A stretch of 64,000 bases of DNA from Sulfurospirillum sp. 1612 (GCF_036556685.1 NZ_CP140614.1:1426001-1490000); one strand, 5' to 3'. Numbered from the stretch's first letter, positions 52,504 to 64,000 are shown. Numbers and translations: made by a program. The notes: generated by a model not told the origin, from the letters alone.

Positions 52504-52580
52504 GGGTTCTTAGCTCAGTTGGTTAGAGCTCCCGGCTCATAACCGGGCGGTCGAGTGTTCGAGTCACTCAGAACCCACCA
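52504..52580 (+). tRNA. tRNA-Met (anticodon CAT)
   Basis: Acceptor arms GGGTTCT and AGAACCC pair perfectly, D-arm TTAGCTCAGTTGGTTAGAGC, anticodon stem CCCGG/CCGGG with loop CTCATAA, T-arm with GTTCGAGTC and encoded CCA. A G1-C72 pair argues against the initiator, so it is an elongator Met or, less likely, an Ile2 tRNA with lysidine. An integrated element begins directly at its 3' end. Confidence 0.95.
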
Positions 52581-52651
52581 TCTCAAAACCCCTTCATATA
52601 GGCAATTAGAATACATTTTGCAACATTTTACAAGCTTCACATAAAATATAC

Positions 52652-52672
52652 TTTCCACCCTATTTCCACCCT
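52652..52672. repeat. Two direct copies of TTTCCACCCT near the left attachment end
   Basis: TTTCCACCCT occurs at 52652-52661 and 52663-52672, about 75 bases inside the element. Paired short direct repeats near an attachment site are the form of integrase arm-binding sites; this role is inferred. Confidence 0.5.
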
Positions 52673-52759
52673 AAAAAAATATTAAAATAACTCCTCATGA
52701 AATCAACTGAGATAATTTATAAGTGGATCATACTTCTTTTAAATATCCATATCTACTAT

Positions 52760-53110
52760 TTATGCGATATTTAATTTTTTACTAACTGAAATTATTTTAT
52801 GAAATTCAATGTTCATTTCGATAATTTTGGAAAGCTCTATTGATAGTGTGCTATATGCCTTTGCATCAATTGGTATAAATTGTACAATCTTTTTGTCGAT
52901 ATCTCTAAAATATACCCGGATAAGACTCTCTCCATCTATTTTACAATGAACGAGATCTCCATTTTGAATAATTGCATTGCAATCACAAATACAGTCATCG
53001 CCAGGGTTTATTTCTGGTAACATGCTACTGTCTGCTGCTGTGATACAATAAAATTCTGATCCATGTAAAGTTTCTTCTATATTATCTCTTGATAAGTCTA
53101 ATTTTTTCAT
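52760..53110 (-). CDS. S24-type repressor C-terminal domain protein lacking HTH
   Basis: A 116-residue protein that matches only the C-terminal, LexA/CI-like half of phage repressors: ADSSMLPEINPGDDCICDCNAIIQNGDLVHCKIDGESLIRVYFRD (seen in parts), where S-M-x-P holds the nucleophilic serine (~29). The position of the catalytic lysine appears to be arginine (LIRVYF). No DNA-binding domain is present. Start follows AAAGGAGATAAA. The separate divergent HTH gene at 53361 might supply DNA binding. It could also be a decayed repressor. Confidence 0.7.
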   Translation of the reverse strand: MKKLDLSRDNIEETLHGSEFYCITAADSSMLPEINPGDDCICDCNAIIQNGDLVHCKIDGESLIRVYFRDIDKKIVQFIPIDAKAYSTLSIELSKIIEMNIEFHKIISVSKKLNIA

Positions 53111-53128
53111 TTTATCTCCTTTAAAAGC

Positions 53129-53191
53129 CTAAAACGAGGCTTTATGCTCAGTCTCACTCATTTGGAATAAGAAAGTCGATTGTAGGGCCAT
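53129..53191 (-). CDS. Possible 20-residue leader peptide
   Basis: A frame starting MALQSTFLFQ with AAGGTGG five bases before it, ending inside a hairpin (AAAGCCT/AGGCTTT, 53124-53143) that precedes the ribosome site of the S24 gene. A leader/attenuator role is possible but speculative. Confidence 0.25.
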   Translation of the reverse strand: MALQSTFLFQMSETEHKASF

Positions 53192-53243
53192 TTAGACCAC
53201 CTTTTTATATCTCTTGTTTTTTTACCTCCTTGTTAATCCAAAA

Positions 53244-53267
53244 TGTATATTTATCAAAAATTATACA
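53244..53267. promoter_or_regulatory. Candidate operator palindrome
   Basis: TGTATA (53244-53249) and TATACA (53262-53267) form perfect half-sites separated by 12 bases in the 250-base gap between the two divergent regulatory genes, the expected place for a repressor operator. No second copy was seen nearby. Confidence 0.4.
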
Positions 53268-53329
53268 CTTTTAATGTAGAAAAGTCAATAAAATATTAAC
53301 ATATTTCATGAATAATTAATATTTTATGC

Positions 53330-53335
53330 TATAAT
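53330..53335 (+). promoter_or_regulatory. -10 box of the HTH gene
   Basis: TATAAT 25 bases before the ATG at 53361, leaving a leader of about 20 bases with AGGGTG as ribosome site. No good -35 is seen, as is common in this phylum. Confidence 0.5.
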
Positions 53336-53360
53336 TATAAAAAAAGCATTAGGGTGTTTT

Positions 53361-53576
53361 ATGACGAATGAAGAATTTGAGAAATTACTGATGATTGCAA
53401 AACTAAGTAAAAAAACATTTAGTGATCTTGTGGGTCTTAATTATCATAGTGTAGGAAATTGGAAGCAATCAAATAAAATACCAATATGGGTTAAATCTTG
53501 GTTAAATCTATATATAGAAAATAAATTTAGCCGGGAACTCAAAGAGCTTATAAAAAAAAGTGGTTTATGCCAATAA
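53361..53576 (+). CDS. Small helix-turn-helix protein, Cro-like
   Basis: A 71-residue protein with a helix-turn-helix at ~15-45 (KKTFSDLVGLNYHSVGNWKQSNKIP, in parts FSDLVGLNYHSVGNW), of the short XRE-like type frequent in Campylobacterota mobile elements. The C-terminal half is a charged helix. It is divergent from the S24 gene and is followed two bases later by another small gene. A Cro or excision-control role is inferred from position. Confidence 0.7.
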   Translation: MTNEEFEKLLMIAKLSKKTFSDLVGLNYHSVGNWKQSNKIPIWVKSWLNLYIENKFSRELKELIKKSGLCQ

Positions 53577-53577
53577 A

Positions 53578-53739
53578 ATGAAGACTTTTATCGATTCTCA
53601 TATTGGTCTTATTAATGTTTTTGATTCACTTGAAATATATAATTTTATTGACAAAATTGAAACTACTTTAAATGGTGATGTTTTAACACCAGGTGTCAAA
53701 ACTAATTTAAATAATTTTGTTAATGGTTTTTGGAAATAA
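53578..53739 (+). CDS. Hypothetical 53-residue protein
   Basis: Frame MKTFIDSHIGLINVFDSLEI... starting one base after the HTH gene's stop codon and ending TAATG at the next frame. Mixed polar and hydrophobic composition with no recognised motif. Close spacing after the HTH gene supports co-translation; there is no Shine-Dalgarno of its own. Confidence 0.45.
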   Translation: MKTFIDSHIGLINVFDSLEIYNFIDKIETTLNGDVLTPGVKTNLNNFVNGFWK

Positions 53740-53861
53740 TGTCTTTTAAAAAATATGCTGATTTATATCTTCAATTTTTTTCAATGTCATTTCCATTAAG
53801 ACAGCCCCATATTTACTTCCTTTCCACTTTATTTTTGGAAACACCGACAGAAGGGACATAG
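53739..53861 (+). CDS. Possible 40-residue protein
   Basis: Frame MSFKKYADLYLQFF... whose ATG overlaps the previous stop codon. No motif; may be chance or the remains of a longer gene. Confidence 0.22.
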   Translation: MSFKKYADLYLQFFSMSFPLRQPHIYFLSTLFLETPTEGT

Positions 53862-54109
53862 CGCTTAAACTATACATTTTTATTTTTTTTGTTAGCCCAG
53901 GTGTGAGATACTTCAAATTCTTTCACTATTGAGCAGATAGAGCAGGACTTCCTTCAGCCTTTAATTTTATCTTTTGTTTATGTATCATTTAACCCTACCC
54001 CCTAATATAGGTTTTTGTAAAAATTTGGGAGGAGTGTCGGTGTATGGACATTGCATCTGTGAGTTTTTAACCCCGCCCCTCCCCATGAAGTTTAGTACGA
54101 CTGAGAAAA
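53862..54109. other. Non-coding stretch of the element
   Basis: About 250 bases with no convincing gene on either strand. ACACCGACA (53841-53849) and TGTCGGTGT (54035-54043) are perfect inverted copies about 185 bases apart, and GGGAGG (54028-54033) can pair with CCTCCC just upstream of 54084. This may mean a structured RNA, or terminators for the genes converging here; nothing firmer is seen. Confidence 0.4.
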
Positions 54110-54358
54110 TCATCCATGTAATTCTCTTCTAAACAATTCCCTGTTCTCTTCAATTTTCAAAGGATCTATAGCATACAAGTAATATAACTTACCAGGGACT
54201 GGAGTAGTTATTATATCAAACCCAATTTCTTTCAATTTTGTAACTCTTGATCTTAGATTATTACTGATATAGACTTGACATGCTTCTGCAGCAGTTATGG
54301 GCCCTTTGTTCAATAGATGCCTAATGATGCGATAATTTTCAGTATTGCTCCTAATCAT
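54110..54358 (-). CDS. Winged-helix DNA-binding protein
   Basis: An 82-residue protein of phage-type winged-helix form: ENYRIIRHLLNKGPITAAEAC (first helices), SNNLRSRVTKLKEIGFDI (recognition region) and a hairpin (TPVPGKLYYLYAID). Such proteins serve as small transcription regulators in prophages. It is the last gene of the minus-strand block. Start follows AAGGAG. Confidence 0.65.
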   Translation of the reverse strand: MIRSNTENYRIIRHLLNKGPITAAEACQVYISNNLRSRVTKLKEIGFDIITTPVPGKLYYLYAIDPLKIEENRELFRRELHG

Positions 54359-54367
54359 TTTAACTCC

Positions 54368-54598
54368 TTATGAATTATAAATACTGTTTAAGAATTTATC
54401 AAACTCTTTAATCCAAGTATTTGAGGTAGCAGTGCTTACACCCCAATTACTTGCATAATATCTTTGACTATTATACTTCTGTTGCCCATAAACACAATCA
54501 TGCTGTATGTCGCTATAATAGTCTAAAAATGCCATTCCTTTTTTAAAATTTTTAACCTTTAGCATTTTTGTATAATTAACGATACTATCTTTTTCCAT
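54368..54598 (-). CDS. Small putative HTH protein
   Basis: A 76-residue protein from ATG 54598, which has AAGGGG before it. The stretch YNSQRYYASNWGVSTATSNTWIKEF looks like a helix-turn-helix with a wing (seen here as YYASNWGVSTATSNTW). No family recognised with certainty. It lies ten bases before the winged-helix gene, in the same direction. Confidence 0.5.
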   Translation of the reverse strand: MEKDSIVNYTKMLKVKNFKKGMAFLDYYSDIQHDCVYGQQKYNSQRYYASNWGVSTATSNTWIKEFDKFLNSIYNS

Positions 54599-54627
54599 AT
54601 TGTCCCCTTGAGTAATGTGCAATTAAT

Positions 54628-55188
54628 CTATCTATGACTAATTATAAACTCAATTTTTCCTAATGATAAATACACTGTGTCATAAATAGTTCCTGCTCTG
54701 TGATATGGTGCAATATCTTCTAACTCTTTCTTTATCTTTTGTATAATAGGGAGTGACCTATCTAGAATAGCGGCGGCTTTCTCATAAGCTTTTGTTCTAT
54801 CTTTATCAGATTGTATCATCGGCTCACAATATAGGTTAATCATATCTACTACAAGATTAAAATTTTCACTTAACTTTTCACCAATATAATATCGGCAAGC
54901 ATTTTCAAATAATGCCCACTGGTCATATATTATGCTTCCATTAATTACACTTGATATGATTCTTCTATCGATACCTTTTTCTCTCAGTAAATGTTCTGCT
55001 CCAAGTTGTTGCAGATGTGAAGAGTAGTTTGCAGGTGTGCTACCATGCTTCCATAATTCAATGAATGATTCAGGTATCTCGTCGAATTTATATCCTATAC
55101 CCTCCATCGCCTCAAGAACCGGTTCAAAAGTATCTCTTATTGTCTCTCTTGTCTCATTCGTGCGTGATGCAATTGCTCTATAGTTCAT
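54628..55188 (-). CDS. Hypothetical protein of the element
   Basis: A 186-residue, mainly helical, soluble protein. The N-terminus (AIASRTNETRETIRDTFEPV) could be a helix-turn-helix by pattern, but the rest (YDQWALFENACRYYIGEKL and later helices) matches nothing I know. Its start overlaps the upstream gene by 11 bases, so it is coupled to it. Start follows AAGGAG. Confidence 0.6.
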   Translation of the reverse strand: MNYRAIASRTNETRETIRDTFEPVLEAMEGIGYKFDEIPESFIELWKHGSTPANYSSHLQQLGAEHLLREKGIDRRIISSVINGSIIYDQWALFENACRYYIGEKLSENFNLVVDMINLYCEPMIQSDKDRTKAYEKAAAILDRSLPIIQKIKKELEDIAPYHRAGTIYDTVYLSLGKIEFIISHR

Positions 55189-55621
55189 TATAACTCCTTA
55201 AAAATTTTTCTAGATTTTTTATCTTTTCTTTATCCAACAAATCTGTAAGACTTGTAAAATTCTTTTGCATCGTAATAATATCTAGACGCATTAGCTGATC
55301 TAAAAAAGTTTTATTTTCTTTTTTAGTAGTGTATTTTCCTACGATTTTTTCTAAGTTTTTTCTACCCCTAGTAATATATGATGCTGCATTAAAATCAGCA
55401 TTACACTCTTGTAAGTGAAATAACCCAGAATAAATTCTACTATATAGTTTAGTTGATTCGCTGCTACCTGCTTCAAATTCTAGAATTTTTACCATATAGG
55501 CAAATGGAGATAAAGTCTTTTTTATATCTCTTGTACCAGATAATGATGCCTCATATTTTGAGTATTCATTGCTCAGCTGTGGTATCTTTTTGAGAGCATT
55601 TATAATTTCAGCATGCTTCAT
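55178..55621 (-). CDS. Hypothetical protein with a decayed paralogue upstream
   Basis: A 147-residue helical, charged protein (KHAEIINALKKIPQLSNEY at the start, LLDKEKIKNLEKFLRSYNEL at the end). The DNA of its first ~50 bases recurs almost exactly at the start of the pseudogene 55721-56165. Start follows AAGGAATAAAAA. Function unknown; it lies in the tail-gene transcription direction but after the tape measure gene. Confidence 0.65.
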   Translation of the reverse strand: MKHAEIINALKKIPQLSNEYSKYEASLSGTRDIKKTLSPFAYMVKILEFEAGSSESTKLYSRIYSGLFHLQECNADFNAASYITRGRKNLEKIVGKYTTKKENKTFLDQLMRLDIITMQKNFTSLTDLLDKEKIKNLEKFLRSYNEL

Positions 55622-55651
55622 TTTTTATTCCTTCTCTTTATTTTTTATATT

Positions 55652-55720
55652 TTATATTTTCTCATTTGTTTTTAAATATTTTGGGCCCAATAGCATAGGT
55701 TCTATTAAAAAGGTGCAATT
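55652..55720 (-). pseudogene. Remnant of a copy of the 60378-60632 gene
   Basis: The frame reads ...PMLLGPKYLKTNEKI then stop, matching the C-terminal FDLGPNYLKTNEKI of the gene at 60378-60632. At DNA level the stretch ATTTTCTCATTTGTTTTTAA and the following TTTGGGCCCAA are shared by both places. Only the last 20 or so codons survive. Confidence 0.7.
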
Positions 55721-56165
55721 TTATAAACATTTAGCTAGATCCTCATAAATATTTAATAGCGATTGTAAGTGCTTTATTTTTCCCTTATCAACAAGGCTGG
55801 AATAATTGTTAAATTGATCTTTCATCTCAACTATTTGAAGAGCTACCATTTGATGTAAAACTGATGGTGGTACTTTATCTATCCCCAATTTTGCAACAAT
55901 TTGGTTACATGTTCTAAGACATTTTTTATTCTCAAAATCTATGCGCTCTTTTGTATATAAGCTATTGAATACAGTATTTATTTTTTTCCCAGATCCTTTG
56001 AATCTCTTTGTCTACTCTCATTTAGCAAAACTTGAAGTATATGTGTATTTGGTCTTCTCTTTTTGCTTTAAAATCTGTATTGGCCAATGATGCCTTATAT
56101 TTTAAGTATTCATTGCTCAGCTGTGGTATCTTTTTGAGAGCATTTATAATTTCAGAATTTTTCAT
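55721..56165 (-). pseudogene. Frameshifted paralogue of the 55178-55621 gene
   Basis: The 5' part (KNSEIINALKKIPQLSNEYLKYKASL) matches the neighbour's start and stops at codon ~48. The 3' part continues in another frame (KKINTVFNSLY... through SLVDKGKIKHLQSLL to stop at 55721) and matches the neighbour's end. An internal deletion or shift near 56020 separates them. The first ~50 bases are nearly identical between copies, showing a recent local duplication or conversion. Confidence 0.8.
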
Positions 56166-56179
56166 GTTAGTTACCTCTT

Positions 56180-56362
56180 TTATTTTATATTGTATGATTT
56201 TTTATAAATATTCTTAATCCAAGCATTGCATTTTTGTACATAGTATTTAATCTCAAAAACTTTATACTCTATGATAAATTTAACTCTTTGAAACATTATA
56301 CATAGGTAAAACAATGAAACCCAAATAGTCCAAAAAAAGATGACTACCCATAGTCTAAGCAT
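56180..56362 (-). CDS. Possible small membrane protein
   Basis: A 60-residue frame with one N-terminal hydrophobic segment (LWVVIFFWTIWVSLFYLCIMF) and a lysine-rich tail. No ribosome site is evident. It follows the tape measure gene by 36 bases on the same strand. A holin-like or chance frame are both possible. Confidence 0.3.
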   Translation of the reverse strand: MLRLWVVIFFWTIWVSLFYLCIMFQRVKFIIEYKVFEIKYYVQKCNAWIKNIYKKSYNIK

Positions 56363-56398
56363 TGATTTTCCATCTTAAACTACCATATGTTGGGAAAC

Positions 56399-59300
56399 TC
56401 ATCTAACCCCCTTTATCGCATTTCTCATATCAGGGTTTCTCTCTATTGCATTCATGACGATTTGGATTGTCTTATCCCCGTTTTGGTTTATGACTTGGCT
56501 CACTTGTTTCATATCTATTGGAGTGCCTGATTTATTCTCTACATTGATGATGACATTGCCACTAGGAACAGTTCCCGTGTTATTCATATGATTTAGATTG
56601 CTTACTCCAATTGCATTTGTCGCTTGTTTGTTTAGGATATACTCACCGCCCATAGCAAAGATATTACTGCCACTTGCGCTGCCTAAATATAAATCATCTC
56701 TAACACCACTACCCCCAGTTAAAAGTCCGCCGGTTGCATAAGCCTTTGCAGGTATCATGCCGCCATTTGCTCCAAAAAGAGACATTATCCCAGTACCTAT
56801 GCTGCCAAATACTCCACTCATCCCAGAAGAAGCGCCTACAAGTGCTTTTTTTATCTGTATCCGGACAAGATCTGCAATCATAGAGTCTGCTAAATCTTTA
56901 AAACTTAGTTTTCCCGTTTTGACAAAGTTCACAAAAGCATCTTCTACCCCTTGCAACCCATCTACCATTAATTTTGTACCGGTTTGAAAATCTGTCGGTA
57001 TATTTTTGGCATAGGTGTCATAGGCATCCTTCATGCCTTCAAATGTGCTTCCAGTTAGCACTAGATTTGCTCTTTCTTTATCATATCTTGCTTGTAATAC
57101 GCTATTAATATCTTTTTCTTTTGTTAGTCTTGCTTGCGCTTGTGCGCTTCTGTTGTTTAATAATGCCGTATCAAATATATCATGATCAGTTTTATCCTTT
57201 ACTGCTTGTTTGATTTTATCTTCTATTTTTTGTTCTTCATTTTTTAATCTTATAATATTTTCTTTATCAGCTTTTTGCTTATCAAGAGCATTTAAATAAT
57301 CATTAGCTGTTATTAGTGATTTTGTTTCACTTTCACTATATTCTTTTCCTATCAATGTCCTATCTCTCAAGGTCTTATTTATAGAGTTTTGTATGTTATT
57401 TTGTTCTTTGAGAGAAGGTGAAATTTGTTTTAATCCTTTTAACCATTCTTCCTGCGCAGACTTTGTCCTGGTGGTAGGCTTGAATGTCTTGGAGTAAGCA
57501 TCTTTAAACCTAGTAATATAATTAGTAAAATCTTTTCCCTTTAACCCTAAAGCATCTGCTGTACTGTATGCTTTGGTTCTAGTTAGACTTACTAGCCACG
57601 CTGTCCTGGCATCCCCAATCCCCTTATAATAATCTTCCCAATCTGATTGACTTGCCCCTAAAGTATAGTTTATTTTTTTTATTGTAGGAGTGATATCTTT
57701 TAATCCAAGATATGATTGCGCGTCGAATGTTGTTTTTGGAGCAAGCGTTTGGACACTTGGAGCTAAAAGTCCGTTGATTTCTTTTTGGATATTTCTAATT
57801 TTTTCTAACGCGATTTTTTTATCATCAAGGATAGCTAAGTTTCTTTTTTGCTCATCATCGCTTCCATTTTTTTTGGATGCAGCTATATAGGCAATATTAA
57901 AGTCTTTTATCGCATTCATCTCTGCTTCATTTAACAACACTTTTTGATATTCAAGTTGATGTTTCGTCAGTTTTTTTAAACTATCCATACTCCTTTGCGC
58001 TGCTTCATTTAATTCATCTGCATGATGTGCTGATGACAAAAATGCATCACCGATTCCATATATGGTTGCAGCAATACCAATAAATGGCAATGATTTCATA
58101 GCAAGAGATAAAGCTTTTGTAGAAACTGTTGTTAAAACAATAGCTCTATTTACTCCACCATATGCCCCTCCATATATGGTTGCAGCATTTGTAGCAAGTG
58201 CCACAATAGAGGAAAAAGATCTTAGAGCGATTTTGGCTCCGACAACACTACTGGCCATTAATGTTATTTGCCCACCTAAAGATTTTATAACACTTTTATT
58301 ATCTGTCAAATATTTAGAAAGTTCAACCAAAACACTTGAAACTTCCATTATAGGACTTTTCAAGTCTTCTCCATAGGATGCCGCTAATATTTTTAAAGAA
58401 GAGGATAGTTTTGTATTCTGTGCCTGAAGTCCTTGAGATGCAGCTACATACTCATTCTGTATTGAAGTTCCCCTGGTATATTCATCATTGGATATTTTTA
58501 AATCTTCTGATAATGTTTTTGTTGAGGAGGAAAGCTTGAGTAATACCCCAGATGTACGAATTTCGCCCAAACCAAGATTAGATAAAAAATTTATCTTATC
58601 ACTTGAACTTAATTTACTCATTACATCGAAAAACTCATTGAGAGCTTTTATCGGTTTATCTCTCATATCATTTGCAAATTCTTGTGCATTGACACCCATT
58701 TGTTTTGCAAAATTATTAGTATTAGCAGACATTAACATTAGAGTCTTTGATATAGCACTACCCCCTACTTCATAATTAATTCCAAGATCTGTTAATGCTG
58801 CTGATATCCCTGCTATATCAGCAGTTGTTAATCCTACAGTTTTTCCTGCTCCTACAATCTGACTAGAAAACATAAGTAAATCTCTAACGGTCGCAGTTGT
58901 TCTATTTGATAGCTCATTGAATACACTAGCTAATTTGCTAATATTGCTTATTGGCTCTCCCATTTGGTTTGATAGCTTTGCAAATGCTGTTCCTGCCTCT
59001 TGAGCCGACAAGTCTGTTGTCAGCCCAATCATAGATATTACTTTAGAAAAATTTGCAATATTATCAACACCTCTAATACCAAGTTGCCCAGCTGCTTCAG
59101 ATATAGAGTAAAGAGAGTCAAGGTTTAATCCCGCCATTGTTGTGCTCATCTTCTTTAGTTCACTATCTAAAGCTTTAAAACTTTGACCAGATAATCCCGT
59201 CGTCTTTTTTACAGCAATCTGTGCATTTTCTAAGCTTATAAATGAATTTGTAACTTTATTAATCCCCTCAAATCCAGCATATGCTGATACTAGACTGAGA

Positions 59301-59422
59301 ATCGTTTGCTTCATTTGTTTTACACTTTTTGTAACTGATGATTCTGCCTTGTCCATACCTGATATAAGTTTAGCGGTATCTGCTTTTATATCGATAAGAA
59401 CTGTTCCAATTGTTGTACTCAT
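56399..59422 (-). CDS. Phage tail tape measure protein
   Basis: Sets tail length in siphophage- or myophage-type tails. The 1007-residue protein has the TP901-type core at ~60-290 (SEAAGQLGIRGVDNI, LTTDLSAQEAGTAFAKLSNQ and TTADIAGISAALTDLGINYE in parts), hydrophobic segments at ~375-460 as expected for a membrane-penetrating tail tip, a coiled-coil region, and a lambda-type C-terminus (VKTGKLSFKDLADSMIADLVRIQIKK in parts, then glycine-rich). It follows the tail tube and chaperone-like genes, the standard order. At ~1.5 Å of tail per residue this would mean a tail near 150 nm, from the known family rule. Confidence 0.93.
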   Translation of the reverse strand: MSTTIGTVLIDIKADTAKLISGMDKAESSVTKSVKQMKQTILSLVSAYAGFEGINKVTNSFISLENAQIAVKKTTGLSGQSFKALDSELKKMSTTMAGLNLDSLYSISEAAGQLGIRGVDNIANFSKVISMIGLTTDLSAQEAGTAFAKLSNQMGEPISNISKLASVFNELSNRTTATVRDLLMFSSQIVGAGKTVGLTTADIAGISAALTDLGINYEVGGSAISKTLMLMSANTNNFAKQMGVNAQEFANDMRDKPIKALNEFFDVMSKLSSSDKINFLSNLGLGEIRTSGVLLKLSSSTKTLSEDLKISNDEYTRGTSIQNEYVAASQGLQAQNTKLSSSLKILAASYGEDLKSPIMEVSSVLVELSKYLTDNKSVIKSLGGQITLMASSVVGAKIALRSFSSIVALATNAATIYGGAYGGVNRAIVLTTVSTKALSLAMKSLPFIGIAATIYGIGDAFLSSAHHADELNEAAQRSMDSLKKLTKHQLEYQKVLLNEAEMNAIKDFNIAYIAASKKNGSDDEQKRNLAILDDKKIALEKIRNIQKEINGLLAPSVQTLAPKTTFDAQSYLGLKDITPTIKKINYTLGASQSDWEDYYKGIGDARTAWLVSLTRTKAYSTADALGLKGKDFTNYITRFKDAYSKTFKPTTRTKSAQEEWLKGLKQISPSLKEQNNIQNSINKTLRDRTLIGKEYSESETKSLITANDYLNALDKQKADKENIIRLKNEEQKIEDKIKQAVKDKTDHDIFDTALLNNRSAQAQARLTKEKDINSVLQARYDKERANLVLTGSTFEGMKDAYDTYAKNIPTDFQTGTKLMVDGLQGVEDAFVNFVKTGKLSFKDLADSMIADLVRIQIKKALVGASSGMSGVFGSIGTGIMSLFGANGGMIPAKAYATGGLLTGGSGVRDDLYLGSASGSNIFAMGGEYILNKQATNAIGVSNLNHMNNTGTVPSGNVIINVENKSGTPIDMKQVSQVINQNGDKTIQIVMNAIERNPDMRNAIKGVR

Positions 59423-59453
59423 TTATAACCCCTCTAAAAATATTTATTGAAAA

Positions 59454-59933
59454 TTAATCTTGTATGGACAAACTTTTTTCAATGTTACCTTTTTCTTTAT
59501 CAATCGCACTCAAAATCATCTTATATGATGTTCGTTCTGCATATTCACGAAGTTTATCTTTGTCTTCCCCAAATATCAACATGTCAAATCTTTTTTTAGC
59601 CATTGTTTCCTCAAAATCATCACCTCTTAGCTTTTCAATCTCTATATTTAGATCTTCTGCATCTATAGTAAGCTGATCCATCTCTTCAGATATTTCGAAA
59701 GCTCTTTCAAATTTTTGCATTTTTTTAAGAAGCTCAAATTTTTTGCTTAAAATACTTTCTTTTTGTTCTAGCTTGTTTGCCCTTATAAAAAGTTTTTTGA
59801 AATCAGCTGTTAATGTATCAATTTCTTCTTTTTCTTTAAGTGTATAATCTCTATAAAATACCACCAAACTTTCTTGTTTTTCTCCATTTTGGGTAATCTC
59901 TATTGGGATTTTAACATCAAGACTTATTTTCAT
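59454..59933 (-). CDS. Putative tail assembly chaperone
   Basis: A 159-residue acidic, coiled-coil-rich protein (SLDVKIPIEITQNGE start, then long helices to residue ~110). It lies between the tail tube and tape measure genes, the position of the tail assembly chaperone (lambda gpG). No second frame for a frameshift product (gpGT) fits in the 31 bases before the tape measure gene. The call is by position. Confidence 0.6.
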   Translation of the reverse strand: MKISLDVKIPIEITQNGEKQESLVVFYRDYTLKEKEEIDTLTADFKKLFIRANKLEQKESILSKKFELLKKMQKFERAFEISEEMDQLTIDAEDLNIEIEKLRGDDFEETMAKKRFDMLIFGEDKDKLREYAERTSYKMILSAIDKEKGNIEKSLSIQD

Positions 59934-59934
59934 T

Positions 59935-60381
59935 TTACACCGCCGCTGTAACTACTGGTTTACTCGTCATTTCCAAACTTGTTGAACTCTTCATAAAACC
60001 ATTTTTTTCTAAGCCAGAAAGCTTATAACTTGGGACAATCGCATCAAATGTAAATAAAGTACCGGTTCCTGATGCTGTTGCAGGATTTGGAAGTTCTATT
60101 TGTACCTTAATTGGTGTTGTAGTTGTAGCATCAAAAGCAGCTTTTATAACTCCATTCCCGTTAGGTTCATCTGGGTCATAGGTGTAACTTAGATCAAGTG
60201 AGCCAAGTTTTAACGTGCCGAGGACCTTATCAATAATTTCTGAGTCTAACGAATCTATCGTAATTACATCTTTTGCCCCAAAATCAATATCTCCGATAGT
60301 TTGTATTGCCCCTACCTTGTTATATGTAGTTCCACTGTCACTACTCACACTAAGTGTCGTATTTTGCGCCTGTATAGTCAT
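59935..60381 (-). CDS. Phage tail tube protein
   Basis: A 148-residue beta-rich protein with the siphophage tube pattern: short N-terminal strand (TTLSVSSDSGTTYNKVGAI), DVITIDSLDSEIID, then GSLDLSYTYDPDEPNG and FDAIVPSYKLSGLEKNGF, followed by a typical SLEMTSKPVVT end. Tube subunits form the tail's hexameric rings. It overlaps the following upstream gene by four bases. Confidence 0.8.
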   Translation of the reverse strand: MTIQAQNTTLSVSSDSGTTYNKVGAIQTIGDIDFGAKDVITIDSLDSEIIDKVLGTLKLGSLDLSYTYDPDEPNGNGVIKAAFDATTTTPIKVQIELPNPATASGTGTLFTFDAIVPSYKLSGLEKNGFMKSSTSLEMTSKPVVTAAV

Positions 60382-60632
60382 TTTTTTCTCCTTATAGTTT
60401 TTTGATTTTGTATTTTCTCATTTGTTTTTAAATAATTTGGGCCCAAATCAAAGGCACTCTTTAATTCTTCTGGCGTCATATTGTAATAAGACTCTAATAA
60501 ATCATCAAATCTTTCACTATCAAAGAGAAATGAAGTGAAAAGAACGCCATATGACTTACCGGTTGCTTCATGCAAGGTTTCAAAAAAAACAGTGATATTG
60601 GCGTCTAGATAAGGTCTGATTCTAGAGTTCAT
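60378..60632 (-). CDS. Hypothetical 84-residue protein of the element
   Basis: Helical protein (RIRPYLDANITVFFETLHEAT, MTPEELKSAFDLGPNYL), ending in KTIRRKK. Its start overlaps the initiator gene by 11 bases and its end overlaps the tail tube start by four, so it bridges replication and tail genes in one transcript. A remnant of a second copy lies at 55652-55720. Function unknown. Confidence 0.65.
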   Translation of the reverse strand: MNSRIRPYLDANITVFFETLHEATGKSYGVLFTSFLFDSERFDDLLESYYNMTPEELKSAFDLGPNYLKTNEKIQNQKTIRRKK

Positions 60633-61434
60633 TTTTATCTCCTTTATCTTCTAATGACATTACAAACTTTCTTAACTCATAGATCGTTTTAAAAGTAATG
60701 TTTTGCTTAGAATCTGTAGTTTTATCGATAAAAGACAAATAAAACTTTATATTTAGTGCACTTTCTTTTACACTGTAGTATGGCAATAATTTTAGTTTTG
60801 TCATGTTCTCAAAGCTTTTATCTTGATACCGAATGTTAAATATTTCACATTTGATATCAAGATAATATCGCTCAAACTCTTCCAAAGTTCCTAAATCCTT
60901 TTTTTTGAATTTATTTCTAATTGATACTTGAAAGGACTTTTTATTTCTAATATTTGATGATTCATTGATCACATGCTGTATATAAGCTTCTACTGCTTCA
61001 GAGATATCATCACCCAGGAGAGAAAAATATATATTCTCTCTCTCTTTTTGTATTATTTTATTTTGTGTGTTCGTGTGGCGAACCACCCCTTGTTCGTGTG
61101 GCGAACTAGGGTTGTCCGTGTGGCGAACTACCTTTTTACCAAAATTTTCGGAATTTAAACTATATCTTGTGTAACTATTTGAGCCAGATTTTGTTTTTTG
61201 CTTAGAAGCTATGATAATTTGTTTATCTTTCAAGCTTTTTAGTGAACTGATCACCTTTGTTTTTCCTATTCCCGTGAGTTCGGAAAACTGGCTAAAGCTG
61301 ATACCGTCACTTTTTTTATTAAAGCCAATAGTTTTTCTGACAATAACTGACAATATTGCAAATTCATAAGTGTCAAATACGCTAATATTATCAAGTATGT
61401 CATTTGGAAATTGTGTAAAATTTGCATTGTCCAT
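60622..61434 (-). CDS. Replication initiator, lambda O-like
   Basis: The 270-residue protein has an N-terminal winged-helix domain of the phage replication O type (~1-95): FTQFPNDILDNISVFDTYEFAIL, VIVRKTIGFNKKSDGISFSQFSELTGIGKTKV in parts, SLKSLKDKQII. A linker (~97-125) contains the repeated peptide VVRHT twice, encoded by DNA iterons (see 61069-61128). The C-terminal part (~130-270) is helical and would be expected to recruit a helicase. No helicase or loader is encoded in the visible element, so host DnaB would be used. Confidence 0.82.
   Translation of the reverse strand: MDNANFTQFPNDILDNISVFDTYEFAILSVIVRKTIGFNKKSDGISFSQFSELTGIGKTKVISSLKSLKDKQIIIASKQKTKSGSNSYTRYSLNSENFGKKVVRHTDNPSSPHEQGVVRHTNTQNKIIQKERENIYFSLLGDDISEAVEAYIQHVINESSNIRNKKSFQVSIRNKFKKKDLGTLEEFERYYLDIKCEIFNIRYQDKSFENMTKLKLLPYYSVKESALNIKFYLSFIDKTTDSKQNITFKTIYELRKFVMSLEDKGDKNEL
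61021..61128. other. Putative replication origin: three dyad iterons and an AT-rich tract
   Basis: Three 15-base iterons, GTTCGTGTGGCGAAC at 61069-61083 and 61092-61106 and GTCCGTGTGGCGAAC at 61114-61128, start 23 and 22 bases apart, about two helix turns. Each has inverted arms GTTCG/CGAAC around TGTGG. Next to them, 61021-61068 is AT-rich and strand-asymmetric. All lies inside the initiator gene's linker, as in lambda O/ori. Confidence 0.75.
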
Positions 61435-61448
61435 ACATATTGCATTTA

Positions 61449-61706
61449 CTAAGCTGTTTGTATGTTGTCAAAATAATATCTGGCAATTTCACTGATAGGG
61501 AACATCACTCGTCCGTTGTTTGTCCTGCTATTTGTAACAATCTTTTTATGCTTGAGGCCTACACCAAGATTACACATCCGGTCTAATGTTTGAGTAGATA
61601 CACCTAAAATTGTCGCAGTTTCAATCTTTGTATAGATTAACTTTGTTTTGATTCCCATACCGTTAATAACTGGCATGATTTCTTTGATTTGCTCTTGTAT
61701 TGTCAT
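61449..61706 (-). CDS. Excisionase/MerR-like HTH protein
   Basis: An 85-residue protein with a winged HTH_17 pattern: KIETATILGVSTQTLDRMCNLGVG (~27-50) and then a wing (NGRVMFPISEIARYYFDN). This is the form of excisionases and AlpA-like regulators. It lies 14 bases before the initiator gene. The region before it holds AT-rich promoter-like sequence. Whether it drives excision or controls replication genes is unknown. Confidence 0.65.
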   Translation of the reverse strand: MTIQEQIKEIMPVINGMGIKTKLIYTKIETATILGVSTQTLDRMCNLGVGLKHKKIVTNSRTNNGRVMFPISEIARYYFDNIQTA

Positions 61707-61968
61707 TTTGTCTCCCTTGTATTTTTATTTAACTTGGGATAATTTTATAATATTGTTTAAAGATAGAGTTGTCTCATAATATTGTGTTTAAGGTATGTGG
61801 AAACTATAATTAATTAAATTTATAATTTATTTTTTATTGATATTGGAATATAGTATGATTATTTAAGGATATAGGAGCAATTTCATAGAGTATCGTTTTT
61901 TAACACAGATACCCCTAAAAATTAGACTTTTGATTTTGCATTGTGATGGGATAAGATAATAAAAAAAT
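61707..61968. promoter_or_regulatory. AT-rich gap before the excisionase/initiator genes
   Basis: 262 bases with no gene. Just upstream of the ATG at 61706 the minus strand has AAGGGAGA and further up ATTATAAAAT, a likely -10 for the replication/tail transcript. The middle (61800-61860) is almost pure A/T. No iterons or clear hairpins seen. Confidence 0.4.
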
Positions 61969-62598
61969 CTATAAAAATTTAATCCAATGCTGCTCTGATA
62001 CGATTGATAAACCGGTTTGTTTCTGATCTCTTAGAAATATTGCCTTTTCAATTTTCCGCCCAAAAGAGGAGTGGGCCCATTGTTCACTTCCTATGCCCCC
62101 AATAACTAGATAGTTTGTATCATTTTTCATAGATTTATGCATAATCCCGCCTAAGTCACAGATAATCTCTTCGCATTGTTTTCTAGCCCCAATAGTAAAA
62201 ATTCCGGTAAAGACAAATGAATTATCAGGGATAATGATATCAGGTAGTGGATCATTAAGAGGCAATGTTGTGCTTCCTTGTATTGTATTTTGGTGTTTAT
62301 TTTTATCTCCATTTAAATTTTTGATAATCTCAATAAGTTCTGCAGCTTCTTGATCATCAAGGATATCATCTTGAAGCATTTCCTTAAGTCTATTATAGAG
62401 TACATTAAAAGGATAAATATTGACGTATTCTCTATGATCATCAATCCATTTTAATAAATATTTTGCTTCTAGTTCATTTATAATGCCATCAAAAGTAATG
62501 CCTTTACAGATACCTAAAAGTTCATCTATATTTCTATCCGTCATAGCATCTATATTAAACTTTATGATAGGTTGCCCTTGGTCGTCAATATACTGCAC
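61969..62598 (-). CDS. BRCT-domain protein of the element
   Basis: A 209-residue protein. Residues ~1-105 are helical and unrecognised. Residues ~125-209 form a BRCT domain: FVFTGIFTIGARKQCEEIICDLGG, then NDTNYLVIGG, GRKIEKAIFLRD and the late tryptophan in EQHWIKFL, as in the C-terminus of NAD-dependent DNA ligases and related phage proteins. BRCT domains bind DNA ends or phosphoproteins. No ligase or nuclease domain is fused. Start follows AAGGAGATAAA. Confidence 0.75.
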   Translation of the reverse strand: MQYIDDQGQPIIKFNIDAMTDRNIDELLGICKGITFDGIINELEAKYLLKWIDDHREYVNIYPFNVLYNRLKEMLQDDILDDQEAAELIEIIKNLNGDKNKHQNTIQGSTTLPLNDPLPDIIIPDNSFVFTGIFTIGARKQCEEIICDLGGIMHKSMKNDTNYLVIGGIGSEQWAHSSFGRKIEKAIFLRDQKQTGLSIVSEQHWIKFL

Positions 62599-62693
62599 TT
62601 TATCTCCTTATATCATATTTTATATCACTCTATTGAAGATATTAGAGACATAATATCTTTAGAACCTTAACATAATTTTAAATACTATATAAT

Positions 62694-63221
62694 TTATTGT
62701 TCTATTTTAAAATCTAAACTTTCTATAAAATCATTAATTTTTTTGCTTTTGCGCTCATAATATTTTTGATTAAAAAATTCTTTAATTGTGTCTCTTTTAG
62801 GTTTTACATCTGTTTTTCTTATAAAATATTTATCTGGATCTTCCAAAAAATTATATAATAAATCATTTAAATCACTAGCATCCTTTGTCATAAGTCCATT
62901 ATAGGTCAAAATTTCACTTAAATATTTAGCATGATTCACAGCTTTTTGTTTTAATTCTGGGATACCTCTCGTCCGATTCTCTTTAAAAAGATCATTCAGT
63001 CCATCCTTATAGTTTTTTTGTGATTTTCTATAAGAATTTATTAAGAGCAAAAAAGTAGTAATCGATAAATCTGGAAGTGGACAATTTTCAAAAATATCAA
63101 TATAATTTTCAATTAAAAAGATATCGTCTTTATCTATTTTGACACCATCTTCTTTAATCTTTTTTTCTGCTTTTAAAAGTAAGTTTTTTAGAGCAATATT
63201 ATCCATTTTTGAACCTATCAA
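62694..63221 (-). CDS. Hypothetical protein next to the integrase
   Basis: A 175-residue charged, helical protein (IALKNLLLKAEKKIKEDG at the start). Its ATG overlaps the integrase 3' end by 23 bases. No motif recognised. The 95 bases after it hold no gene. Confidence 0.55.
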   Translation of the reverse strand: MIGSKMDNIALKNLLLKAEKKIKEDGVKIDKDDIFLIENYIDIFENCPLPDLSITTFLLLINSYRKSQKNYKDGLNDLFKENRTRGIPELKQKAVNHAKYLSEILTYNGLMTKDASDLNDLLYNFLEDPDKYFIRKTDVKPKRDTIKEFFNQKYYERKSKKINDFIESLDFKIEQ

Positions 63222-64000
63222 AGACCTTTTGTGCGATATTATGTCTTTGATTTGGTATCAGGTGTGAGTATCTCAAAGTCATATCTAGCTTTTTATGTCC
63301 CAATTGTTCTTTGATCTGCAAGATATCGGCTCCCTCAAGGGCCATCCATGATGCGTGCGTGTGCCTCAGATTATGTGTAGTAATCCTATATTTTCCATTG
63401 ATCGTTTTATTTTCTGGGATAAGTTCATCCACTATGGTTTGCCATTGCTTTGGCATCTCATGCATTACCGTTCCAAGTCTTGAAGGGATTACTAAGGTAT
63501 TTGTTTTGGGTAAACTCTGCAGCACTTTTTTTACTTCATCCACTATGGTGATGTACCTTGCATTTCCATTCTTAGAGCTTTTAAAATATATCAAGTTCGT
63601 TTCAAAGTTTATATCACTCCAGGTAAGTCCTGCTATTTCACTAAATCTAGCGCCAGTGAAAAGCAATAATACAGTTAAATTATACATGGTAGGACTTTTC
63701 TTGGCTTTGAGGGTATCAAGTAATTTAGACGCCTGATCATATGTCAAAAATCCTAATTTTGCATTGTCGACAACCGGCATCCTTACTCTTCCATTGGCAA
63801 TTGGATTTATATATGACTTCACATAATTATTTTTAATACAATAGTTGATCATATGTCTAGCTGCTCCCAGGATACCAACTACAGTTTTCGGCTTATACCC
63901 CTCTTTGAGTTTTAATTGCTTAATCTTTTCAAAATCTTCTGTAGTAATCGTGATAAGTTCTTTTTTGCCAAGAAAGGGTTTAATATGTTTGATATACACG
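63199..64000 (-). CDS. Tyrosine recombinase/integrase, 5' end outside window
   Basis: Phage-type site-specific integrase. Visible are the core-binding domain (~1-80 of the visible part; ITTEDFEKIKQLKLKEGY) and the catalytic domain with all expected residues: R in FTGARFSEIAGL, the beta-hairpin lysine in KNGNARYI, HNLRHTHASW (H-x-x-R), GHKKLDMT (second H) and the nucleophile in TLRYSH. About 267 residues are seen; the N-terminal arm-binding part lies beyond 64000. The GTG at the very edge is not its real start. Likely responsible for insertion at the tRNA-Met gene. Confidence 0.93.
   Translation of the reverse strand, partial: VYIKHIKPFLGKKELITITTEDFEKIKQLKLKEGYKPKTVVGILGAARHMINYCIKNNYVKSYINPIANGRVRMPVVDNAKLGFLTYDQASKLLDTLKAKKSPTMYNLTVLLLFTGARFSEIAGLTWSDINFETNLIYFKSSKNGNARYITIVDEVKKVLQSLPKTNTLVIPSRLGTVMHEMPKQWQTIVDELIPENKTINGKYRITTHNLRHTHASWMALEGADILQIKEQLGHKKLDMTLRYSHLIPNQRHNIAQKVFDRFKNG

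Follow-up and report, generated by a model that had tools for sequence, protein, structure and literature searches.

The 64,000-nucleotide stretch of Sulfurospirillum sp. 1612 analysed here (NZ_CP140614.1:1426001-1490000; hereafter the window, to whose coordinates positions refer unless stated otherwise) ends within an integrated element that, when the sequence is read on past 64000, is complete, 11,987 bp long and bounded by attachment (att) sites. We consider it probable that this element is a complete cos-type phage satellite at tRNA-Met, which is packaged by a helper phage and makes chimeric tails. This view draws on features that can be read from the sequence, namely the boundaries and gene content of the element, a packaging-like site, its kinship to one siphophage family and the occurrence of a second element of the same plan.

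The tRNA-Met gene was located by ARAGORN at 52504..52580 (plus strand). Its 3' half (52533-52582) represents attL and returns as an exact 50-bp repeat at 64520-64569, the attR site, about 200 bp beyond the integrase start and next to the host genes trkA and trkH. The earlier note on this DNA, written from the window alone, had proposed reading past 64000 to the second attachment site and had regarded head genes in that interval as evidence against a satellite. Since the interval holds only the 5' end of the integrase gene, no terminase, portal or capsid gene precedes attR, and this objection did not materialize. In five genomes of the same genus (G002, G003, G006, G007 and G008), rodA, tRNA-Met and trkA are contiguous; the insertion site is therefore empty there. 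The GC content of the element is 31.8%, compared with 37.3% for the remaining window. An assembly error was rejected based on the single 2.38-Mb contig, the exact att pair and the empty sites in relatives. On two other contigs (G010:C21 and G017:C6), rodA and tRNA-Met are separated by ~6-8 kb and extra att-like fragments occur on further contigs, which possibly reflects other elements at this site.

Read on the minus strand from the integrase, the element encodes int, a 175-amino-acid (aa) protein, a BRCT protein, an excisionase-like protein, repO, k84, the tail tube, a chaperone, the tape measure protein (TMP), proteins of 147, 186 and 84 aa and HTH_39; past the latter, near the tRNA, follow the S24 gene and, in divergent orientation, an HTH gene. 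Every gene named in the earlier note was recovered (integrase, excisionase-like, O-like initiator, tube, chaperone-like, TMP and repressor/HTH genes). Its further claim that head and packaging genes are missing holds for TerL, portal, capsid, tip and lysis genes, none of which turned up when the element's proteins were matched to families; a few of these proteins match no family. Terminase, however, is not wholly absent, as a broken 5' remnant of terS and a cos-like site are located at 53816-54086. As is typical of satellites, the element is att-bounded, lies within the size range of ~7-20 kb and carries int, xis and repO without TerL, portal or capsid.

The tail block (minus strand) begins with k84 (60378..60632; 84 aa), which is ~30% identical to a protein in the second element described below (G118), and continues with the major tail (tube) protein (59935..60381), a tail assembly chaperone (59454..59933; gpG-like by position and 50-51% identical to phage homologues) and the TMP (56399..59422; 1007 aa; PF10145, PF09718). 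The genes are tightly packed, with overlaps of 11 bases between repO and k84 and of 4 bases between k84 and the tube gene, 1 base between tube and chaperone and 31 between chaperone and TMP. The tube protein was assigned by phrog_158 (6e-16), by its fold and by 69-72% identity to the tubes of the phages L053 and L154. Its fold was compared because a PDB sequence search with the tube gave nothing; the first matches of the structure model (pLDDT 71) were lambda-type tail tubes (lambda and YDC107; Foldseek E 1e-6, TM 0.67), and according to this model the protein is lambda gpV-like. In the tail genes dN is well below dS, with values of 0.22 for the tube (dS saturated) and of 0.41-0.43 for the chaperone (dS 1.8-2.1). 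Single-protein scans of IMG/VR, made with repO, the tube or the TMP, returned nothing.

The tail block and the region around the packaging-like site resemble one family of HK97-type Campylobacterota siphophages. The 36-kb phage contig IMGVR_UViG_3300026512_000040 (L135/L154) encodes a tube, a chaperone and an HTH39 protein that are 72%, 51% and 57% identical to those of the element, and has a near-identical cos core; the tube of a phage fragment in a metagenome-assembled genome (L053) is 69% identical. A complete prophage of this type, phi7, is present in the same genus (G007 contig C178; also IMG/VR 3300005096_000522). The resemblance extends to the TMP N-terminus, to the HTH_39 winged-helix protein (54110..54358, minus strand; PF14090; 57.5% identical to the helper-type phage gene) and to the 84-aa protein (54368..54622, minus strand), which matches, at 36-38% identity, a portion of the 265-aa phage protein encoded just upstream of HNH/terS. 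The phages differ in having head and tip sets and, in most loci, a small open reading frame (ORF; 46-94 aa) between chaperone and TMP, which is missing in both satellites. From the replication region, the phage order is HTH39-dnaB-265aa-HNH-cos-terS-terL-portal-capsid-connectors-tube-chaperone-small ORF-TMP, whereas the element is arranged as repO-k84-tube-chaperone-TMP-147-186-84-HTH39-cos, in which the tail block comes before the cos block rather than after it. Because this order differs from that of the phages and satellite-specific genes lie between the blocks, plain deletion of a prophage cannot explain the element. Among these genes, k84 and the gene of the 186-aa protein do not occur in the helper-type phages and recur in the same order in the G118 element.

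In HK97-type phages, cos sits between HNH and terS. A 212-nt stretch of the window (53817-54027) is 70% identical to the HNH-stop/terS-start junction of prophage phi7. It overlaps a 5' relic of terS (53816..53989, minus strand; 58% identical to phi7 TerS over 53 codons), in which stops and a frameshift interrupt the reading; of HNH, only the end is left. In an alignment, the adjoining cos-like packaging site (53984..54086, minus strand) shares with the phages two G-rich runs and, between them, CACCG followed by TTTTTACAAA. The window contains a single occurrence of the search pattern CACCG-N10..18-TTTTTACAAA-N8..18-GGGG (0.00 expected in shuffles), and 20 IMG/VR contigs have it as well. In 10/20 of these it is located at the HNH/TerS junction, with the terS start 52-65 nt downstream, terL after it and the left G-rich run present throughout (10/10); the remaining ten contigs show neither this placement nor the left G-rich run and look like chance matches. 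In addition, the pattern was found upstream of TerS in three prophages (among them those of G282 and G191) and in an element of genome G065 that carries TerS. Based on position and conservation, we read 53984-54086 as a putative cos site.

A second element of the same plan was identified in a genome of the same order and a different family (G118), where 15.3 kb lie between 55-bp repeats at tRNA-Arg. Its genes are, in order, int, a 262-aa gene, HTH, two unassigned genes, a helicase and another unassigned gene, followed by a k84 homologue, a chaperone-like gene, a TMP gene (609 aa), two small genes, a homologue of the 186-aa protein (35%, 8e-20), HNH, TerS, SRAP and small genes. HNH and TerS (PF05119, 2e-19) are intact, and the element has no TerL, portal or capsid and no tube. 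The same genome carries a complete 41-kb prophage (G118:C1 ~973.7-1014.8 kb) with 24-bp repeats at its ends, which over the compared stretch is 100% identical to IMG/VR 2929491376_000001. Over residues 3-386, the satellite TMP has 46% identity to that of phage L053, while its C-terminal 171 residues (433-603) match the TMP of the co-resident prophage at 82% identity (dN 0.12, dS 0.59); the prophage TMP is 67 aa longer in total. The sole DNA common to satellite and prophage is 403 bp at 90.3%, within this C-terminal region. The C-terminus of the lambda TMP is located in the tail tip (PMC10721106). The simplest reading of the sequences is that the ruler of the G118 satellite has acquired or exchanged a docking end that fits its neighbour. 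The small terminase candidate of the prophage does not match the satellite TerS, which is therefore not derived from this prophage; the packaging partner could be another phage.

Taken as a functioning satellite, the element would excise via Int/Xis and replicate from its own O-like initiator. Since it has no head genes, its DNA would be packaged into the capsids of a helper siphophage by the helper terminase (TerL/TerS), acting at the carried cos-like site. During assembly, the satellite would supply its own tube, chaperone and TMP, with the tube laid on the satellite's ruler, and the C-terminus of its TMP would dock on the helper's tail tip, yielding a chimeric tail. The dependence on a helper, packaging at the cos-like site and chimeric tail assembly are steps that we infer. 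A satellite supplying its own tube and ruler had been one of the proposals of the earlier note, and it is the reading best supported by the complete att-bounded element, the divergent second element, the cos-like site and the TMP end that the G118 satellite has in common with a helper-type prophage. As a control, the other TMP loci found in the order were examined with their flanks: the satellite layout is absent from all of them, and where the flanks are complete, the loci belong to ordinary phages in which tip genes follow the TMP.

Several observations weigh against this interpretation. The host genome was searched for TerL (phrog_2, phi7-type) and portal (PF04860) with negative results, which leaves room for other terminase types; accordingly, no resident helper prophage was seen. 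A search of ~400 genomes of the order yielded just two elements of this plan. The kinship of the window element's TMP to any single helper is patchy; its N-terminus is 57-61% identical to helper-type phages and its C-terminal third 42% to phage G191. Compared with L135, the cos-like site is identical at 49/60 and the terS relic at 96/139 positions (p 0.08), so that the extra conservation of the site is only suggestive. Moreover, terS is broken, as is one copy of a tandem duplication of the 147-aa gene (~55721-56165, minus strand), and the copy in the window may therefore be decaying. The element could thus be a satellite of the same kind that once moved with its HNH-terS intact (as may still be true of the G118 element) and is now dead in this host; both broken genes, the loss of all but the last part of HNH and the missing helper would fit such a history. 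It is at odds with the identical att sites, with the intact frames of int, xis, repO, tube, chaperone and TMP, and with the retention of the cos-like site though the surrounding gene is lost. Furthermore, an own TerS is dispensable in many satellites. On balance, we regard a dead satellite as rather unlikely. The overlapping intact frames, put forward in the earlier note as an argument against decay, do not suffice, given the broken terS; gene order and the parallel element argue instead against a prophage derived by deletion.

Such a defective prophage would have started as a siphophage, with head, tip and lysis genes since lost, and would have no satellite function. In its favour, the tail genes trace to a single phage family, as do HTH39, the 84-aa gene, cos and the terS relic. 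We judge this origin improbable, as the order is not collinear with the phage, the tail block preceding the block of the 84-aa gene, HTH39 and cos with satellite genes in between, and as k84 and the 186-aa gene are foreign to these phages and keep their order in the G118 element. Hardly more probable is an anti-phage element that produces surplus tube, chaperone and TMP as decoys spoiling the tail assembly of an invading siphophage, to the benefit of the host and not for transfer. The presence of a tail module without the remaining phage genes would suit this role, and tail assembly is a defence target according to two reports (PMC10884400, PMC11364771). Nevertheless, the full int/xis/rep set and the cos-like site point to transfer, and the TMP C-terminus of the G118 element matches the helper as expected for productive docking; decoy and transfer roles can coexist. 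A tailocin was rejected, as tip and lysis genes are lacking.

In the earlier view, satellites obtain their tails whole from their helpers. An exception, with one contractile phage, was described in 2026 for the phage-inducible chromosomal island-like elements (PLEs) of V. cholerae, which encode TMP and tail assembly chaperone, incorporate this TMP in their virions and were shown to build chimeric tails (PMC12987554, March 2026). A satellite with tail genes is consequently not without precedent, contrary to the earlier note. Without tmp, PLE transfer falls by 96-99.9%, and PLE11 tails are ~10 nm shorter, with a difference of 95 aa between the PLE11 and ICP1 TMPs (PMC12987554). The same work presents PLEs as the first known family of this kind; also listed there are PLE-like elements and capsid-forming phage-inducible chromosomal islands (cf-PICIs) with putative tmp (PMC12987554, Extended Data Fig. 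10). As in PLE1, PLE4 and PLE11, TMP and chaperone genes occur in the window element without a full head set, a likeness seen here in the genes. In G118, the satellite TMP likewise departs in length from that of the co-resident prophage, being 67 aa shorter. The window element differs in encoding its own tail tube, whereas PLE11 relies on the tube of ICP1, in a siphophage-type instead of a contractile tail, in the lack of a baseplate hub and of head genes, in having a Campylobacterota host instead of a Vibrio host with ICP1 as helper, and in carrying a cos-like site. In a comparison of the chaperone only, its profile did not find the PLE1 chaperone 5IR0 in a PDB set at E up to 5. In combining an intact TerS with the lack of TerL, the G118 and G065 elements resemble TerS/cos PICIs, as they do in integrase, xis, replication initiator and 10-15 kb size; the window element differs by its tail block and broken terS. 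cf-PICIs build their own heads and packaging proteins and take tails from the helper. The window element shares with them structural genes in a satellite, including a putative tape measure in some cf-PICIs (PMC12987554), but lacks its own capsid, portal and packaging genes.

The principle is thus already published for PLEs, and what is new here is the other host and lineage and the own tail tube; the literature searches made turned up no account of phage satellites from Campylobacterota. The elements suggest a PLE-like solution in another phylum with non-contractile phages, extended by the tube. More tentatively, and at somewhat less than even chances, they may form a class of their own, unrelated to PLEs, of tail-building satellites that assemble their own tube on their own TMP, keep only the helper's cos site and exchange the tip-docking TMP C-terminus with the resident helper. 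The elements also offer a natural test of the constraints on a TMP, in which the C-terminal, tip-docking end would have to fit the helper and the ruler would be free to vary in the satellite.

A further element at the same tRNA-Met was found in G065 (L098, L043). It encodes an O-like initiator, xis, RecT, a RecE-like exonuclease and TerS and has no tail or head genes, which suggests that such satellites swap assembly modules; its likely integrase (52%) lies on another contig end. Integrase relatives in G097, G098, G027, G031 and G037 were set aside for their unrelated cargo.

Turning to the other genes of the window element, all on the minus strand unless noted, the tyrosine integrase (63199-64323, crossing the window end at 64000; 374 aa; PF00589, 1.1e-27) is overlapped at its end by the 175-aa gene (62694..63221), which has no assigned function and no significant homology to its positional counterpart in G118. 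The BRCT-domain phage protein (61969..62598; phrog_3989) is 49% identical to a protein of Sulfurimonas phage SNW-1 and has further relatives in Pseudomonas phages and in K139-like phages of Vibrio. Next follow the excisionase-like HTH_17 protein (61449..61706; 33% to the xis-like gene of the G065 element) and the lambda O-like initiator repO (60622..61434; Phage_rep_O PF04492, 1.5e-13; phrog_678). The 147-aa gene (55178..55621) matches a 133-aa gene of G118 in position, without significant homology. The 186-aa satellite-specific protein g186 (54628..55188) has its sole other occurrence in G118 (35%): homology scans of IMG/VR and GTDB contigs found nothing, weak matches in G138, G188 and G342 were rejected as false, and its structure model, helical and of low confidence, had no matches in a fold search. 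The S24 (LexA/CI C-terminal) protein without HTH (52760..53110; PF00717, 1.3e-9; phage homologues 38-40%) is probably half of a split repressor, and the small HTH regulator divergent from it (53361..53576, plus strand; phrog_8898, 8e-16) has homologues in Campylobacterota prophages. PADLOC gave no convincing match.

The host genome contains a further element beside a five-tRNA cluster (L096; G000:C1 ~100.1-107.4 kb); its genes include one resembling repO and one of 1317 aa with a relaxase-like start. In the G118 satellite, tandem 38-bp repeats (95% identical) and a related 27-bp copy just before the helicase (L022:5926-6044) are possible replication-origin iterons, and the SRAP gene (L022:13971-14684) is YedK-like.

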